From Deltaproteobacteria bacterium (GTDB lineage: Bacteria; Myxococcota_A; Polyangia; Polyangiales; JADJMO01), in assembly GCA_022843175.1 (NCBI GenBank), contig JALHOE010000033.1, positions 1 to 54,052 of the forward strand: 54,052 nucleotides of DNA. The letters are read 5' to 3'. Shown in pieces: positions 476 through 15,379 of the stretch. Position 1 is the stretch's first letter. Each line of letters begins with the position of its first letter. The notes under the pieces were generated by a model. It searched no databases and had not been told where the DNA came from. It saw only the letters and a list, made by a program, of their open reading frames with translations. Made by a program: the position numbers and the translations under genes.

Positions 476-484
476 AGCCCACCC

Positions 485-2221
485 ATGGTCAAGATCACCG
501 TCCGCAGGGCTGCGGCTGCGCTCGTCGGCGCGGCGCTCGCGCAAGGGAACGTCCACTGTGCTCCCGCCGATCGCGGCGAGGACGGTTACGAGCACGCGGT
601 CGCCGCGAAGTCCGCGGCCTACTCGGTGCCGAGCCCGGGCGCGGCCACGCTGCGACTCGACTTCTACTACTCGGGGAGCGGCGCGCCGCAGAAGCAGTTC
701 TCCGTCGGCGAGACGACGACCGACGAGTTCGTGCGCGTCGGCCAGAAGCTCACGCTGGAGATCCCCGGGTGGGTCATCCTGCCGCTCGTGCAGGACGAAG
801 CCGGGAGCGTCACTCCCGAGAACCTCTCGAGCAGCAACGTGAGCCTCGTGATCACGTGGCTCCACGGCGGCGCGACCCTGTCGACCGAGACCGTCAAGAT
901 CACGTCGTGGAAGGCAGAGGGCTCGAGCTACGGCTGGCCCGACGCGCGCATCGAGTCGATCGTCGTGCCCAAGGGCGCGACCGGCATGCGGTCGACGATC
1001 GTGGGGACGAGCGCCGACGGCAAGAAGACCGGCCGCGAGACGCTGGCCGAGACGCCGGTGTTCGGCGGCGAGCTGCCGAACAAACACGTCTACTTCGACC
1101 TCGGCAGCGACGGCCCGCAGAGCCGCGTCCTCGAGCGCGGCGAGCCCGTCGCCGGCTCCGAGCTCGTGGTCGCCTACGCAGACGGGCGGGCGGACCGACT
1201 CGTGGACAGCGGCTCGATCGACCGCCGCGTCGGCCGGGTGAAGACCTACAACCCGCGGTTCGGCACCTACGAGAGCGACGTGTTCGGCGAGGTCATCCAC
1301 GTGATCAGCGTCGGCTACGACTTCGGCGGCGGCTTTCGGGAGGAGGCCCTCACCAGGAGCCCGCTGCCGTACGCGCGCTACGGCAACACGCAGGAGACGA
1401 GGCTTCACGTGCCGGACGACGCGACCCGGGTCGCGATGTACTTCCACGTCAAGACGTACCTCGTCGCGAAGTACCCGACCTACGGCGAGGTCACCGAGCG
1501 CAAATACAAGGACGGCGAGTGGATCCTCGTCCGCGAGAAGTGGGACAACCCGAGCGGCGCCGGCAGCAACTTCGCGTTCGGCACCGAGGCGAAAGAGCCG
1601 CTCGAGAAGCACCTCCAGCGCACGGTCGTCTTCATCAAGGGCGAGACCTCGCCGGGCCAGGATCTCTTCATCCGCGGCGGCATCGATCACGAGGCGTCGA
1701 AGAGGCTTCGTGGCGTCGTGTGCCAGAGCGACGACGGCGCGCCCAACTACGCCTGCGCCCTCCCCATCTTCCACCGCAACCTGCGGAACCCCACCACCCG
1801 CGCGTGGAAGCTCGGCGACGCATTCCTCGACTGGTATGGCCGCGAACGATCGCAGCTCGTCTCCTCGTCGAGCGGGCTCGCGCAGGGCACCGCGGCCGAT
1901 TGGACGACCAACGCCTGGCCCTCCTCGTGGGGCGCGCCGAAATCGGTCGCCGTCGACGGCTACGGCCTCGAGAAGCTCAACGGCGTGGGTGCGCACCTGT
2001 GGATGCTCGACGTCGACATGGACTGCACCAGGGCCTTCGCGGCGCCCGACGGCACCCGCTGGTTCGAGGCGAAGAGCTTCATCTCCAACGGCCCCGGCTG
2101 GGAGGGAGACGTAGCCCAACCCGGCGCGCCCTACCCGTCGGCCAATCACTTCGCGAAGTGCGGGCAGGTGAGCCTCTTCGAGCGTGGCAGCGGCGCCGCC
2201 ACGTTCAAGCCCTTGCCCTGA
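485..2221 (+). CDS. Secreted protein of unknown function with a conserved-looking Trp-rich C-terminal domain
   Basis: The 578-residue product opens with a basic stretch and an Ala/Leu-rich core (ITVRRAAAALVGAALA), so export is likely. Residues about 45-420 look beta-rich, with repeated charged and aromatic strands. The last 150 residues form a separate domain rich in W, G, D and C (WKLGDAFLDWYGRE, DWTTNAWPSSWG, WMLDVDMDCTR, FISNGPGWEGD). I have an impression that similar tails occur in other myxobacterial exported proteins, some near amylases, but cannot confirm this. The next gene starts 25 bp downstream and encodes an amylase-radical SAM fusion, so the two are probably co-transcribed. The repeats at 444-475 lie just upstream. 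A carbohydrate-binding role is possible but is inference only. Confidence 0.75.
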   Translation: MVKITVRRAAAALVGAALAQGNVHCAPADRGEDGYEHAVAAKSAAYSVPSPGAATLRLDFYYSGSGAPQKQFSVGETTTDEFVRVGQKLTLEIPGWVILPLVQDEAGSVTPENLSSSNVSLVITWLHGGATLSTETVKITSWKAEGSSYGWPDARIESIVVPKGATGMRSTIVGTSADGKKTGRETLAETPVFGGELPNKHVYFDLGSDGPQSRVLERGEPVAGSELVVAYADGRADRLVDSGSIDRRVGRVKTYNPRFGTYESDVFGEVIHVISVGYDFGGGFREEALTRSPLPYARYGNTQETRLHVPDDATRVAMYFHVKTYLVAKYPTYGEVTERKYKDGEWILVREKWDNPSGAGSNFAFGTEAKEPLEKHLQRTVVFIKGETSPGQDLFIRGGIDHEASKRLRGVVCQSDDGAPNYACALPIFHRNLRNPTTRAWKLGDAFLDWYGRERSQLVSSSSGLAQGTAADWTTNAWPSSWGAPKSVAVDGYGLEKLNGVGAHLWMLDVDMDCTRAFAAPDGTRWFEAKSFISNGPGWEGDVAQPGAPYPSANHFAKCGQVSLFERGSGAATFKPLP

Positions 2222-2246
2222 TCGGCCGCGACGGAGACAGTGGGGC

Positions 2247-5153
2247 GTGGCTCCGATCCGCCTCGAGCTCCCCCGCGGCAGCGAGCTCTTCGGTGAGCTC
2301 ACCGACTGGCTGCACCCGCGCGTGCTACCGGAGGGTCTGTTCGAGGAGGCCCTCCCCACGGGTCTGTACGCGTACAAGGTTCGGCTCGACGGGGCGTGGC
2401 TCGAGCCCTCGGGTCGAACGCGCAGCGTCGACGGCGTGCGCAACAACGTGCTCTCCGTCGGCGGCACGCCGGAGCCACTCCTCTTCGCGCCGGCGGCCCC
2501 GTGCGTGCACGAGCACGCCGACGGCACGCTGCACCTGTTCGCAGCGCTCCGCCGCGGCCACGGCGCGCAGCTCCGCGTGCGCTACCGCGAGCACCCGACC
2601 GATCCGCTGGTAGCGGTCGAGTGCGAGCCGTTCGCCGAAGAGGACGAGCACCGCGTGCTCCGCGCGGTGTTGCCCACCTCGAGCGACGCGGTGGAGCTCG
2701 CGTTCGAGGTCGACGGGGCGCCCGTCGGCGAGCCGCTGCGTTGGTGTCGAACCGCACCGCGCGAGGCGCGGGCGCCGCTTCGCAACGTCTACACCATCTT
2801 CGTCGATCGCTTTCGCCGGGTGCCCGAGGGCGCGTGGAGCGACCCGGGCCGCGACGCGCCGGCGGGCGGGAACCTCGACGGCATCACCGCCTCGCTCGAC
2901 GAGCTCCGCGCGCTCGGGGTCGACACGCTGTACCTCACGCCCGTGCAGCTCGCAGCGAGCTGCCACCGCTACGATCTCGTCGATCCTCTCCGCGTCGATC
3001 CCGCGCTCGGCGGCGAAGAGGCGTTCGCGCGCCTGCTCGACGGCGTTCACGCGCGCGGCATGCGTTGCCTGCTCGATTTCTCGTTCGTCCACGTCGGCCG
3101 TGGGTTCGCGCCCTACGAGGACGTGCGAACGCACGGGCGCGCCTCGCGCTACGCCGCATGGTTCCAGTGGCACGGCGCGGAGCTCCGGCACTACGGCCAC
3201 CGCAGCGACGCGCCGCTGCTCGATCTCGAGCACCCCGAGGTGCGCGCGCTCGCCCTCGCGACGGTCGAGCACCTCGCGAAGCTCGGCGTCGACGGCTTTC
3301 GTTTCGACGCCATCGCCGACGTCCCGCTCGAGCTCGCGCGCGCGGTGCGGACGCGCCTGCGGCAGCTGCGCCCCGAGGCGATCGTCCTCGGCGAGGTGGT
3401 TCCACCGCACGCATGGCGGTTCTCGGGTGCGGTCGACCTCGCGACCGACTTCGCGTTCCACGCGCTCGCGACACAGTTCGTCGCGCAACGCTCGATTGAC
3501 GCGGCGGACTTCGCCCTCGGACTGCGACGCGCCGAGCTCACGCGCGGCACGTCCGAGGGGAGCGCGGTGCGGTTCCTCTCCACGCACGATCACCCGCGCT
3601 TCGCCTCGATCGCGCGGCGTCAAGGCGATGCGTCGCGAACGCCGCTCGGCCTGCTGCTGCTCCTCTCGTCGCCCGGCGTTCCGGCGCTGCTCTACGGAGA
3701 GGAGCTCGGACTGTCGTCCCCCGACGTCGCGATGGACCTCGAGGCGGCGTGGTCGGATCGGATGACCATGCCCTGGCACGAGCGCGCGCGCCACGAGCCC
3801 GCCCGCGCGTTCGTCGCCACGCTCCTCCACCTCCGCGCCCGCGAGCCCGCGCTCGCCCGCGGAACGTGTGAGGTGTTGCACGCGGAGGGGCCGCTCCTGG
3901 TCTTCCGTCGTCGGGCGGGGAGCACGGTGGACGTCGCGATCAACGCCTCGGACGACCCGCTCGAGCTCGACCTCGAGGACGACGAGCTCGCGAGCCTCGA
4001 GCTGCTGGTCGCGGCGGGGGAGGCGCGCGTCGAGGGTCAGACGCTCCACCTCGGCGCCAACGCCGGCGTTGTGGTGCGCCGGTCGCGGTCGACGGAGCAG
4101 CGCGCGCGGCGCGGGGCGTTCGTGCACGCGCTGCCGGTGCTGCGCGATCGAGACTTCGCCGCCGCGAGCGCCGCGGTCGCCGGTCGCCCGCTGCGCCTCG
4201 ACTTCGCGATCACCGAGCGCTGCAACCTACGGTGCGCGCATTGCCTCACGCTCGCGCCGCAGAAGACCGCCGACGGCACGGCGCGCACGCTGAGCCACGC
4301 CGTCCTCGAGCGGCTTCGAGACGACCTCGCCCACGCCTCGTGGTTCGGCTTCGTGCACGGAGGCGAGTCCCTCACGAGCCCGATGCTCTTCGAGGTGCTA
4401 TCCGCGATTCGCGAGGAACGCAGCGACGCCATGGTCCACCTGCTGACCAACGGAAAGCTGCTGCGCCCCGCGATGACCGAGCGGCTGAGCGCGCACGGGG
4501 TGCGCTCCCTGTTCGTCTCGCTCGACGGCGCGACCGCAGCCACGAACGACCGCATCCGCATCGGCGGCGAGCTGCACGCGATCTGCGCGAACGTACGCGA
4601 CGCCGTGCGCCTGCGAGACGAGCAGCGGCTCGACCTGCGCATCGGCCTCTCCTACGTCATCCTCCGCTCCAACCTCGAGGAGCTGGTGGCGTTCGTGGAG
4701 CTCGCCGCCCGCCTCGGCGTCGACTGGATCAAGCTGGAGGAGCCCGTCGCCGCCACGCCGTTCGCGCGCGACGAGCTGGTCCGCCCCACCGACGAAGGGG
4801 TGCGCGCGCGCGTCGCGGCGGCGCTGGAGCGCGCGCGGACCCTCGGCCTCGTCGCCGTCGATCACTTCGCGCCGGAGCCCGTCTGGCGCTGCCGGCTCGA
4901 CGCGACCTCCCGCGCTTTCGTCGAAGCCGACGAGTTCGCCAACCGAACGACGATTCACCCGTGTCGCGCGGCGTGGGAGCGTGCGTGCATCCTCCCCAAC
5001 GGCGACGTCGCGATCGACGACTTCACCGATCCCGTGGTGGGCAACGTGCTCTCGACGCCGCTCGCGCTCCTGTGGAACGGCCCCGAGGCCCGCGCGCGGC
5101 GCGAACGCTCACGGAGCGGGTGGATCTGCGGGGGCAGGCCGACCTGCGTATGA
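2247..5153 (+). CDS. GH13 alpha-amylase-like enzyme fused to a radical SAM/SPASM domain
   Basis: I start this at GTG 2247, 25 bp after the preceding stop, because a GGAG lies 10 bp upstream. The product has 968 residues and no signal peptide, so it is cytoplasmic. Residues 1-75 resemble an amylase-associated N-terminal beta-sandwich. Residues about 179-630 are a GH13 barrel: 'HRYDLVDPLRVDPALGG', nucleophile D354 in GFRFDAIAD, acid/base E383 in VLGEV, and D448 in STHDHPR. The usual Asn of region I (DxxxNH) is Val here. Residues about 645-968 form a radical SAM domain with C659-x3-C663-x2-C666 (CNLRCAHC), HGGES, and a SPASM-like tail (C906, C914, C961, C967 around ACILPNGDV). The two halves are in one uninterrupted frame. 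The substrate is unknown; alpha-glucan is the default guess for the first half. I know of no characterised protein with this domain pair. Confidence 0.85.
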   Translation: MAPIRLELPRGSELFGELTDWLHPRVLPEGLFEEALPTGLYAYKVRLDGAWLEPSGRTRSVDGVRNNVLSVGGTPEPLLFAPAAPCVHEHADGTLHLFAALRRGHGAQLRVRYREHPTDPLVAVECEPFAEEDEHRVLRAVLPTSSDAVELAFEVDGAPVGEPLRWCRTAPREARAPLRNVYTIFVDRFRRVPEGAWSDPGRDAPAGGNLDGITASLDELRALGVDTLYLTPVQLAASCHRYDLVDPLRVDPALGGEEAFARLLDGVHARGMRCLLDFSFVHVGRGFAPYEDVRTHGRASRYAAWFQWHGAELRHYGHRSDAPLLDLEHPEVRALALATVEHLAKLGVDGFRFDAIADVPLELARAVRTRLRQLRPEAIVLGEVVPPHAWRFSGAVDLATDFAFHALATQFVAQRSIDAADFALGLRRAELTRGTSEGSAVRFLSTHDHPRFASIARRQGDASRTPLGLLLLLSSPGVPALLYGEELGLSSPDVAMDLEAAWSDRMTMPWHERARHEPARAFVATLLHLRAREPALARGTCEVLHAEGPLLVFRRRAGSTVDVAINASDDPLELDLEDDELASLELLVAAGEARVEGQTLHLGANAGVVVRRSRSTEQRARRGAFVHALPVLRDRDFAAASAAVAGRPLRLDFAITERCNLRCAHCLTLAPQKTADGTARTLSHAVLERLRDDLAHASWFGFVHGGESLTSPMLFEVLSAIREERSDAMVHLLTNGKLLRPAMTERLSAHGVRSLFVSLDGATAATNDRIRIGGELHAICANVRDAVRLRDEQRLDLRIGLSYVILRSNLEELVAFVELAARLGVDWIKLEEPVAATPFARDELVRPTDEGVRARVAAALERARTLGLVAVDHFAPEPVWRCRLDATSRAFVEADEFANRTTIHPCRAAWERACILPNGDVAIDDFTDPVVGNVLSTPLALLWNGPEARARRERSRSGWICGGRPTCV

Positions 5154-11531: not shown

Positions 11532-11613
11532 CGAATCCTCCGTGATGGTTCGGTCTTGGTTCGCGACAACGAACGACCGAAGCGGAGGATCCCGAATCTG
11601 ACGGAGACCTCGG

Positions 11614-11686
11614 GTGCGGGGACTCGAATCGAACGAGCCTCTCCGGGAGGCTATCCCGGCGTAGGAACCGCTCCTACCACCCCGCC
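11614..11686 (-). tRNA. tRNA-like sequence with an AGC anticodon, possible tRNA pseudogene
   Basis: A 73-nt minus-strand sequence folds as a cloverleaf. Acceptor GGCGGGG pairs with CCCCGCA (six of seven pairs; 1-72 is G-A). T8 is present. The D stem GTAG/CTAC has GG in the loop, and an extra G-C pair replaces A14/A21. The anticodon stem CCGGG/CCCGG holds loop ATAGCCT. The T arm GCTCG-TTCGATT-CGAGT is canonical. No CCA is encoded. An AGC anticodon with A34 is very rare in bacteria and the acceptor lacks the G3-U70 alanine identity pair, so it may be non-functional or a tRNA-like element. The 337-bp gap 11532-11868 holds this and the repeat at 11701-11762, and nothing else I can see. Confidence 0.35.
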
Positions 11687-12869: not shown

Positions 12870-13024
12870 GCAGCGCCACTGCAACGATCGTCCCTACGAA
12901 GAACCGCACGCCGGCGACCTCAACCGCGAATTTGCCGGGCGTTCTCGGGGTCAGAACGAGATTCGCCCACGACGGCGCGCAGCAGCGGCGACAACCTGTC
13001 CCACGCGGTATTCTCTCCGCCCGA

Positions 13025-15379
13025 ATGACGAGCACCGCCGCAGACACGCGCGACCACTGGCGCGTCGGCATGGTCATCGGCGGAAAGTACGCGCTCTTGT
13101 CGCTGCGCGGCGAGGGCGGCGAGGGGCCCCTGTTCGAGGCGCAGAACACGTGGACGGGGCGACGCGTCGCGATCAAGCTCCTCCACGCGCGCCACGGCGG
13201 CAACGACGAGTCCATCGCGCGCTTCCTCGAGCAGGCGCGCACCGCCACCCTCCTCGAGCACCCGCACATCGTCGACGTGCTCGACATCGGCCAGGACACG
13301 AGCGACGGCTCGTACTTCATCGTGCAGGAGTTCCTCCGCGGCCACGACCTCCGCGCGATGATCGACCGCCAGCAGCTCGACCCCGGGCAGGCGATGAACC
13401 TGCTCCTGCCGATCATGTCCGCGCTGATCGCGGTGCACGACCGCGGCATCGTCCACCGCGACCTCAAGCCGGAGAACATCTTCCTCGCGAAGAACGCGCT
13501 CGGCACGGTGGTCCCGAAGCTCATCGACTTCGGGGTCGCGCGCGCCGTGAGCACGGTCACCCGCACGCTCGCGCACCACGAGCGCGGCGTCGGAACCATC
13601 GAATACATCGCGCCCGAGCAGGTGCGCGGAGACATGCTCGACGCGCGCGCCGACGTCTGGTCGATCGGCGTCGTGCTCTACGAGATGATCGCGTGGAAGC
13701 GTCCGTTCGAGGGCAGGGACGACAAGGACATCGCCCACAAGATCCTCAACGAGAACCCGGCGCCGCTCGACGAGGTCGCCAAGACGGCGTCCCGCGACTT
13801 CGCCGCCGTCATCGCGCGCGCGCTCAACCGCGACCGCGACAAGCGCTGGCCGTCGATGCGCGACTTCCTCCAGGCCATCCTCCACTGCCCGTCGCTGCCC
13901 ACCGAAGAGCTGCGCGCGCGGCACAAGGCCGTCCTCGCGAGCCTCACGCCGACCGGCACCGAGCGCCCCCTCCCCGCGCCGAAGCCGGGGCGTCGCTCGA
14001 TCTCCGTCGTCGACCTCGACATGTCGCAGCACCTCCGCGCTGCCGAGCGTCTCCAGAGCGACCTCGGCATCGAGTCGGGCGCGCGCGCCAACACCGACGG
14101 CCTCGCCGACGCCGCCGAGCGCGCGCTCCAGACCAACGCGCTCGACGAGTGCATCAACGACGCCGAACGCGCGATCCGACGCGCGGTCGGCAAGCAGGAC
14201 ATGACCGCGCGGATGCGGCTCGTGCAGGCCGTCGCGTATCGCTGGCGCGGCACGCACAGCGAGGCCGCGCGCTGCGCCTTCGAGGCGATGGAGCTCCACA
14301 AGAAGAGCACCGCGCCCTGGTTCGAGTCGGTCGCCGAGCTCGCCGTCGCGAGCGGGCTGATCGGCGAGCGCGATCGGCTCGGTTCGCTCGCGGCTGCGGT
14401 GCTCGCCGCGGAGCCGTCGAGCGCCGGCGCAGCGGCGGAGCGCGTCGTCGCGGCGTTCCGCATCGCGGTCTGGCTGCTCCGCACCGGCCAGACCGAGCGC
14501 TCCGAGTCGCTCCGCGCCGCGGTGTACGACGAGGCCCAGCGTTACGACCACGAGCCGCTCGTGCGCGCGTGGCACGCGCTGATGCGCGCCGAGGTGTGCT
14601 CCCACGTGGGCGATCCCGGCGCGTCGCTCGAGCACCTCCAGCGCGCCGTCGAGGCGTTTGGCGCAGCGGGCGACGCGCGCAGCGCCTGCGTCGCGCGCAT
14701 GAACCTCGCGAACCAGTACATCCAGCTCGGCGCCTACTCCGAGGCCAACGACGTGCTCGTCGAGGTGCTCCAGGCCGCGCTCGCGATGAAGCTCGAGATG
14801 GCCGCCGCGGTGAAGGCCAACCACGCGGTCGTGCTCGCGCGCATCGGCGACGTCGATCACGCCGCGCGGCTCGCGCGCGAGGCCGTCGACGAGCTCGTCG
14901 CGCGCGGCAACCGCCGCGCCGAGGCCTTCACCCGCATTTACTACGCCGGCATCCTCTCCTTCAAAAAGGAGTTCGCCGCGGCGGAGGAAGAGGCGCGCGC
15001 CGCCATCGCCGCCGCGAGCAGCGCCCCCGAAGCGCGCGCCTACGCGTTCGCCACGCTCGGCGCGCTGCTCCTCCGCCAGAAGAAGGCGCAGGAGGCGCAC
15101 GAGGTCGCGACCCGGGCGATGGAGATTCTCCTCACCATCGGCGGCGTGAGCGAGGGCGAGTCGCTCATCCGCCTCGTGCACGCGGTCTCGCTCCGCGCGC
15201 TCAAGCGCCACGCCGAGGCCGAGGTGGCGCTCGACGAGGCCGTCGCGCGCCTGCACGAGCGCGCCGACACCATCAGCGACGCGCGCTGGCGGCAGAGCTT
15301 CCTCGAGAACATCGCCGAGAACGCGAGCACCCTCGCCCGCGCCGGCCGGCGCGAGGACCTCACCCACGCCGCGGATTGA
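13025..15379 (+). CDS. Ser/Thr protein kinase with a C-terminal TPR-like repeat region
   Basis: ATG 13025 gives 784 residues. Residues about 20-285 are a Hanks-type kinase: glycine loop GEGGEG (29-34), ATP-anchoring K51 in VAIK, catalytic D146 in HRDLKPEN, D168 in DFG, then 'GTIEYIAPEQ' and 'ADVWSIGVVLYEM'. Residues about 375-775 are helical repeats rich in Ala and Leu with TPR-like spacing ('AARLAREAVDELVARGN', 'EAEVALDEAVARLHERAD'), as in many myxobacterial kinases where they bind partners. No transmembrane segment is obvious, so it is probably cytoplasmic. It should phosphorylate unknown targets. It stands alone between the terminators at 12848 and 15386. Confidence 0.9.
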   Translation: MTSTAADTRDHWRVGMVIGGKYALLSLRGEGGEGPLFEAQNTWTGRRVAIKLLHARHGGNDESIARFLEQARTATLLEHPHIVDVLDIGQDTSDGSYFIVQEFLRGHDLRAMIDRQQLDPGQAMNLLLPIMSALIAVHDRGIVHRDLKPENIFLAKNALGTVVPKLIDFGVARAVSTVTRTLAHHERGVGTIEYIAPEQVRGDMLDARADVWSIGVVLYEMIAWKRPFEGRDDKDIAHKILNENPAPLDEVAKTASRDFAAVIARALNRDRDKRWPSMRDFLQAILHCPSLPTEELRARHKAVLASLTPTGTERPLPAPKPGRRSISVVDLDMSQHLRAAERLQSDLGIESGARANTDGLADAAERALQTNALDECINDAERAIRRAVGKQDMTARMRLVQAVAYRWRGTHSEAARCAFEAMELHKKSTAPWFESVAELAVASGLIGERDRLGSLAAAVLAAEPSSAGAAAERVVAAFRIAVWLLRTGQTERSESLRAAVYDEAQRYDHEPLVRAWHALMRAEVCSHVGDPGASLEHLQRAVEAFGAAGDARSACVARMNLANQYIQLGAYSEANDVLVEVLQAALAMKLEMAAAVKANHAVVLARIGDVDHAARLAREAVDELVARGNRRAEAFTRIYYAGILSFKKEFAAAEEEARAAIAAASSAPEARAYAFATLGALLLRQKKAQEAHEVATRAMEILLTIGGVSEGESLIRLVHAVSLRALKRHAEAEVALDEAVARLHERADTISDARWRQSFLENIAENASTLARAGRREDLTHAAD

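Follow-up and report, generated by a model that had tools for sequence, protein, structure and literature searches.

What does a protein do that joins a GH13 amylase to a radical SAM/SPASM domain? Such a protein is encoded in the window analyzed here, a stretch of 54,052 nucleotides from a Deltaproteobacteria bacterium, immediately downstream of a gene for an exported protein that we call partner A. The original prediction, made from the sequence alone, placed a complete GH13 catalytic triad (D354, E383 and D448) and a complete CxxxCxxC motif (C659, C663 and C666) in one 968-residue frame, and all six residues proved to be where it had put them. As it also stated, no signal peptide is visible in the fusion protein. 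The Alpha-amylase, DUF3459, Radical_SAM and SPASM domains of the protein all score above their Pfam gathering cut-offs (Table 1).

Table 1. The two-gene unit in the window and the parts of its proteins (residue numbers refer to the respective protein)
Feature	Position	Strand	Basis or remark
Partner A (exported, 578 aa), upstream gene of the two-gene unit	485..2221	+	ends 25 nt before the fusion
Partner A C-terminal domain, ~200 residues	1607..2221	+	same kind of domain as at the C-terminus of a GH13 amylase secreted by Pseudoalteromonas
GH13-radical SAM/SPASM fusion protein	2247..5153	+	968 aa, GTG start, open frame
CBM48-like glycogen-binding module, about residues 10-80	2274..2486	+	homologue profile A7; AMPK1_CBM in a Sorangium-like relative
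Possible Ig-like/CBM34-type amylase N domain, about residues 81-176 (tentative)	2487..2774	+	sub-threshold PF02903 in homologues
GH13 catalytic domain, residues 184-495	2796..3731	+	PF00128, 2.8e-34
GH13 triad codons	3306-3308 (D354), 3393-3395 (E383), 3588-3590 (D448)	+	alignment
Amylase C-terminal beta domain DUF3459, residues 523-609	3813..4073	+	PF11941, 6.9e-6
Radical SAM domain, residues 655-819	4209..4703	+	PF04055, 4.4e-11
Radical SAM motif codons	4221-4244 (CxxxCxxC), 4359-4367 (GGE)	+	invariant in 38 sequences
Reduced SPASM (auxiliary-cluster) region, C882 to C967	4890..5150	+	PF13186 and cysteine conservation

The source assembly is fragmented (470 contigs), and nothing else speaks for an artefact of assembly or annotation. 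Against this, the fusion is present in one frame in the complete chromosome of Minicystis rosea and in a single-contig genome (G223). Moreover, a search of 318 genomes of the class at a threshold of 1e-30 gave matches in 46, seven of them GH13-only; the fusion, its contig-end fragments or a split form of it are found in the other 39. One further fusion is encoded in a genome of another class (G486). Thus, the same fusion does recur in related genomes, as the original prediction had proposed to check: it is real and conserved, and the probability of an artefact is practically negligible. The scan of contigs relied on a single query sequence and detects close relatives only, and these occurrences refer to Myxococcota. 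When the full fusion was used as a query against a plasmid collection, the matches listed were GH13-only, with no fusion among them, and none of the records spanned 80% of the query. In one genome (G197; L093, 8133-11020), the frame of the fusion changes near residue 741 and is thereby interrupted, through either a sequencing error or decay.

The extent of the conserved unit could be delimited with a genome of the same genus. DNA identity between the two covers exactly positions 483-5147 of the window, that is, the partner A gene and the fusion with nothing flanking, and the 25-nt gap separating the two genes is identical in both genomes. The same-genus homologue (start at 9992 in L027) also backs the start assigned to the fusion. 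Gene starts in several other relatives were chosen by us, and genes in the neighborhoods were called by a simple codon-position script, with tblastn checks on the named parts. In the same-genus pair, dN is well below dS in both halves of the fusion (dN/dS of 0.18/0.60 for the GH13 half and 0.17/0.62 for the radical SAM half). The original prediction had suggested that a short conserved ORF nearby might encode a peptide substrate, and none was found in this two-gene block. A RiPP-like system with its short precursor peptide encoded elsewhere in the genome would match the general habit of radical SAM/SPASM enzymes, which is general knowledge with no tool result in its support. Since there is no conserved short gene at the locus, and since such a system would leave the glucan-binding modules described below unexplained, we consider it highly improbable.

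The best solved relatives of the GH13 half are cyclomaltodextrinase (1ea9) and neopullulanase (1j0h), both at about 1e-44. The Asp/Glu/Asp triad lies inside the PF00128 domain and, together with H240, Y242, H282, R352 and H447, is invariant in all 34 aligned sequences, which include one GH13-only outgroup. The catalytic domain and all these residues are shared with the cyclomaltodextrinase/neopullulanase/maltogenic amylase group. However, the fusion differs from this group in having a CBM48-like module added at the N-terminal side and the radical SAM domain at the C-terminal side. A further difference concerns region I. Most GH13 enzymes have Asn at the position preceding the region-I His, but this Asn is replaced by V, T, S, A or L in nearly all members of the fusion family, being present in only one of the 34 sequences. 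The NCBIfam AglB model matched at 4e-55, yet far below its cut-off. The active site of the GH13 half is intact, and the domain is predicted to be active on alpha-glucans.

The original prediction said nothing of the region N-terminal to the GH13 domain. A profile of the first ~180 residues of seven fusion homologues (A7) matched the glycogen-binding domains of AMPK beta-subunits at 1e-7 and, more weakly, glucan phosphatases. In addition, the AMPK1_CBM model scored above its gathering cut-off in a relative from the Sorangium-like group described below, in which the N-terminus is fused directly to radical SAM (L105). The window protein alone gave no glycogen-binding Pfam match at E-values up to 1. 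By homology, the N-terminus of the fusion is assigned as a CBM48-like, AMPK-beta-like glycogen-binding module. The second, Ig-like amylase N domain is indicated by sub-threshold PF02903 matches in two homologues (L030 and L105).

In the radical SAM half, the CxxxCxxC and GGE motifs lie within the PF04055 domain, and C659, C663, C666 and G705-G706-E707 are invariant in all 38 aligned sequences, two distant radical SAM outgroups included. The SPASM assignment was only partly sustained. Residues 906-955 do match the Pfam SPASM model above its cut-off (23.3 versus 21.5 bits), but instead of the seven-cysteine, two-cluster set of a full SPASM domain there are three near-invariant cysteines (C882, C906 and C967) and two variable ones (C914 in 22 and C961 in 14 of the 38 sequences, the latter mainly in clade 1, defined below). 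This reduced set suggests at most about one auxiliary cluster and may resemble that of BtrN-type enzymes. Within the five genomes examined, the fusion family stands alone, with E-values below 1e-134 versus about 1e-23 for the next radical SAM protein. A radical SAM/SPASM gene some 4 kb from the same-genus fusion (L027, 16641-18188) was set aside as a distant, separate enzyme.

Which known radical SAM enzymes does this half resemble? With maturases such as PqqE, SkfB and the anaerobic sulfatase-maturating enzyme (anSME), it shares both motifs, a C-terminal auxiliary cysteine region and the core fold. It differs from them in its reduced cysteine set, in the attached glucan-active modules and in the lack of an equivalog, as no NCBIfam radical SAM model came near its cut-off for the fusion family. 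Among solved structures, the family profile matched BlsE best (8e-12) and PqqE second (4.5e-9), with BtrN and DesII also among its best relatives. BlsE, BtrN and DesII act on sugars, but their substrates are nucleoside, aminocyclitol or nucleotide sugars rather than glucans, they lack CBM or GH13 domains, and their similarity to the fusion is limited to the core radical SAM fold and non-specific. An AlphaFold2 model of the fusion built from four sequences (pLDDT 54, pTM 0.35) is too poor for judging domain contacts.

Trees of the GH13 half and of the radical SAM half agree in separating two clades. Partner A homologues adjoin or lie near the fusion in 14 tabulated loci. By co-occurrence counts, which ignore shared ancestry, as do the Fisher values (not used here as probabilities), partner A is present in 20 of the 318 class genomes, all with a clade-1 fusion or the split form (G002 is counted here). 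Conversely, it occurs in 20 of the 21 genomes with a clade-1 fusion or the split form, the sole exception being G274, in which the fusion lies on a 3.3-kb contig. Other relatives have a different exported partner (B), a lipoprotein with a CBM21 domain (PF03370 above gathering in all four proteins scanned) that also matches PP1 glycogen-targeting regulatory subunits at 7e-8. By counts of the same kind, partner B is found with strong matches in 19 class genomes, 18 of them with a clade-2 fusion, out of 20 clade-2 genomes in total. In both clades, a gene for a PHP phosphoesterase (PF02811 with conserved metal ligands) is found near the partner or the fusion, in 20 of the loci retrieved. This PHP subfamily was detected at 1e-30 or better in 24 of the 318 genomes, and all of them hold the fusion or its split form except G123, where the contig ends 289 nt past the PHP gene. 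G257 carries the fusion, partner A and PHP each on a contig of its own, and partner B and the fusion are on different contigs in G178 and G180, so that the association is more than adjacency. The fusion therefore belongs to a gene module with an exported partner and, often, a PHP phosphoesterase. No conserved glucan importer or transporter was seen beside the fusion.

These conserved neighbors, namely the exported protein at 485-2221 and, in relatives, the CBM21 lipoproteins and the PHP phosphoesterase, were likewise missing from the original prediction. It had mentioned a secreted protein gene and two Ig-like lipoproteins next to the fusion; the former is indeed conserved, but the two downstream lipoproteins are not conserved neighbors.

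Partner A itself gave nothing significant against Pfam, NCBIfam and PDB profiles. Most homologues have a canonical lipobox, whereas that of the window protein is degenerate (residues 22-25, NVHC). The N-terminal region is regular, following M-[IVLM]-K-[VI]-x-V-x-[RK] in most sequences, which are otherwise about 30% alike. An AlphaFold2 model of partner A built from four sequences (pLDDT 53, pTM 0.36) is too poor for judging domain contacts. VIA-align on partner A yielded nothing beyond beta-sandwich matches of the Ig-like kind, all with Z below 8, and this may be a common arrangement. Partner A could not be identified as a CBM21 protein, as there was no PF03370 match and the hhalign probability against partner B was 12%; the two families have in common only a WDN-G-N-Y-like ending.

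In seven genomes, partner A is of a long form that ends in an additional amylase-type domain, found among partner A proteins in these long forms only. PHP is absent from six of the seven and present but unlinked in the remaining one, G257. By tblastn, the domain is 50% identical over 98% of the query to an amylase gene on Pseudoalteromonas plasmids; none of the proteins scanned gave a Pfam match for it. We presume that it corresponds to the domain that forms the C-terminal propeptide in the P. haloplanktis amylase. That propeptide is cleaved extracellularly and is dispensable for secretion (PMC1766363). The same domain is carried by other exported proteins in the order (L140-L145), which from their sequences read as sugar-dehydrogenase-like, kelch/galactose-oxidase-like and esterase-like.

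Six genomes (G294-G299), for which 'Sorangium-like' is an inferred label, encode the two activities on two unlinked genes. The first comprises the N-terminus and GH13, belongs to clade 1 and adjoins partner A. In the second, the N-terminus is fused directly to radical SAM; this gene is nested within clade 2, with SH-aLRT values of 95-99 on the separating branches (IQ-TREE). Fusions of both clades coexist in G232, and G233 has a clade-2 fusion as well as a contig fragment adjacent to a partner A gene. Most simply read, the split form is derived and arose through opposite domain losses from two ancient paralogues. Two separately encoded homologues, proposed originally as a sign of an assembly fusion, thus do not have that meaning here, the fused form being present in complete chromosomes. 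In G002, whose radical SAM half lies at the edge of a contig, this half branches basally on the clade-2 side, though partner A and PHP are nearby.

The split form offers a natural way to see which part depends on which. In the Sorangium-like clade-2 radical SAM protein, GH13 has been lost while the glucan-binding N-terminus is still attached, an argument that glucan binding is a requirement of the radical enzyme itself and that its substrate is glucan-bound. On this argument we favor direct action on an alpha-glucan, that is, the fusion as a cytosolic alpha-glucan-modifying enzyme, over maturation of the exported partner, although we put this reading at slightly less than an even chance. The CBM48-like module would dock onto glycogen or maltodextrin, and the cyclomaltodextrinase/neopullulanase-like GH13 domain would cut or reshape the glucan chain. 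The radical SAM domain would then act by hydrogen-atom abstraction on the bound glucan or on a released oligosaccharide, altering it by, for example, oxidation, dehydration or epimerization. The PHP phosphoesterase, cytosolic and present in many lineages, and the exported glucan-binding protein may serve the same glucan pathway. The analysis shows the fusion and its conservation, the intact catalytic residues, the linked genes and the glucan-binding homologies of the N-terminus, of partner B and of the C-terminal extension of partner A; we infer that both halves would work on one substrate, that this substrate would be an alpha-glucan, and the kind of radical reaction.

Glucan-related modules of independent kinds on the partners (CBM21 and the amylase C-terminal domain) count in favor of action on a glucan, as does the presence of BlsE, BtrN and DesII among the relatives of the radical SAM profile. 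The CBM48-like N-terminus, the invariant GH13 residues with dN below dS, the co-occurrence of the genes and the CBM21-like protein that overlaps the fusion in G232 point the same way. The sugar or peptide-sugar modification envisaged originally fits the CBM48-like and CBM21 links; the idea of a coupled sensor found no support. On the other side, the most constant partner is exported whereas radical SAM enzymes are cytosolic, no glucan importer is conserved beside the fusion, and most characterized SPASM-type enzymes act on peptides or proteins.

In an alternative reading, the radical SAM/SPASM domain matures partner A or B before export, with the CBM and GH13 recruiting or preparing a glycan-bound substrate. 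It would account for the partner being the most constant neighbor and for the unusually regular N-terminal region of partner A, and it agrees with the usual maturase role of SPASM enzymes. However, the Sorangium-like genomes have the clade-2 radical SAM protein without any partner B, while their partner A stays beside the GH13 gene that lost radical SAM. Furthermore, the two partner families lack significant similarity, and in most short partner A proteins the lipobox cysteine is the only one, so that thioether chemistry on them is excluded. We regard maturation of the partner as the main rival reading, but rather unlikely. If true, it would be a novel pairing for protein modification with a link to carbohydrate binding, and would lie closer to what is already known. 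Its logic would be that of anSME and its secreted sulfatase, in which a cytosolic radical SAM enzyme is paired with an exported protein; here, however, there is no sulfatase, the partner domains are glucan-binding or of unrecognized type, and the modification is hypothetical.

Alternatively, the locus might serve the use of starch or glycogen, through an exported lipoprotein that binds glucan and a neopullulanase-like GH13 enzyme in the cytosol, with the radical SAM domain only tethered to the glucan and making an unrelated cofactor or regulatory modification. An exported glucan-binding protein beside a GH13 enzyme is indeed a feature of Sus-like starch-utilization loci, with their surface glucan-binding lipoprotein and neopullulanase, and in the Sorangium-like genomes it is the GH13 gene alone that remains beside partner A. 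In contrast to Sus-like loci, no importer or SusCD was seen, the enzyme is cytosolic, and radical SAM and PHP phosphoesterase are added. The radical SAM domain has been kept and fused in two clades and several families, and its split-off form retained the glucan-binding module. Taken with the missing transporter, this makes a merely tethered radical SAM domain quite improbable.

Returning to direct action on a glucan, its complete version would be a myxobacterial radical SAM enzyme acting on a storage or environmental alpha-glucan (glycogen, starch or maltodextrin), fused to a chain-shaping GH13 domain and served by a PHP phosphoesterase dedicated to it and by an exported protein that binds glucan. 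We consider this possible, but well below an even chance. If the radical domain does act on glucan, radical SAM chemistry would reach polysaccharides, beyond small sugars and peptides. In line with the original prediction, which knew of no characterized precedent, none of the papers searched described a GH13-radical SAM fusion or contained CBM21 together with radical SAM. For the architecture and gene module no described counterpart was found, although every single domain comes from a known family. To our knowledge, no system joins GH13 and radical SAM and links both with a PHP phosphoesterase and with an exported protein that binds glucan.

Several loci have additional features. In the clade-2 copy of G232, a second CBM21-like protein with no visible signal peptide (L087, 11057-11893) overlaps the stop codon of the fusion. 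The G486 fusion has next to it a gene (L094, 5417-7414) for a divergent exported protein with many CxDGxC-type repeats and the stretch MWDSRNGENWRV, which resembles the CBM21 ending. In one family (G178-G180), a biotin-synthase-domain gene (BATS and Radical_SAM) lies directly upstream of the fusion (L082, 7814-8821; also L083 and L085), with a one-base overlap between the two frames in L082. Minicystis rosea (G276) has a second PHP gene (5084242-5085534) beside a partner A fragment, far from the fusion locus. In the window, ARAGORN called a tRNA-Ala at 11612-11686 with the anticodon AGC, which is unusual in bacteria, and the call may be false. Farther on, the window encodes at 12932-15379 a homologue of the same-genus gene at 6252-8054 of L027, whose product has protein kinase and FGE-sulfatase Pfam domains.
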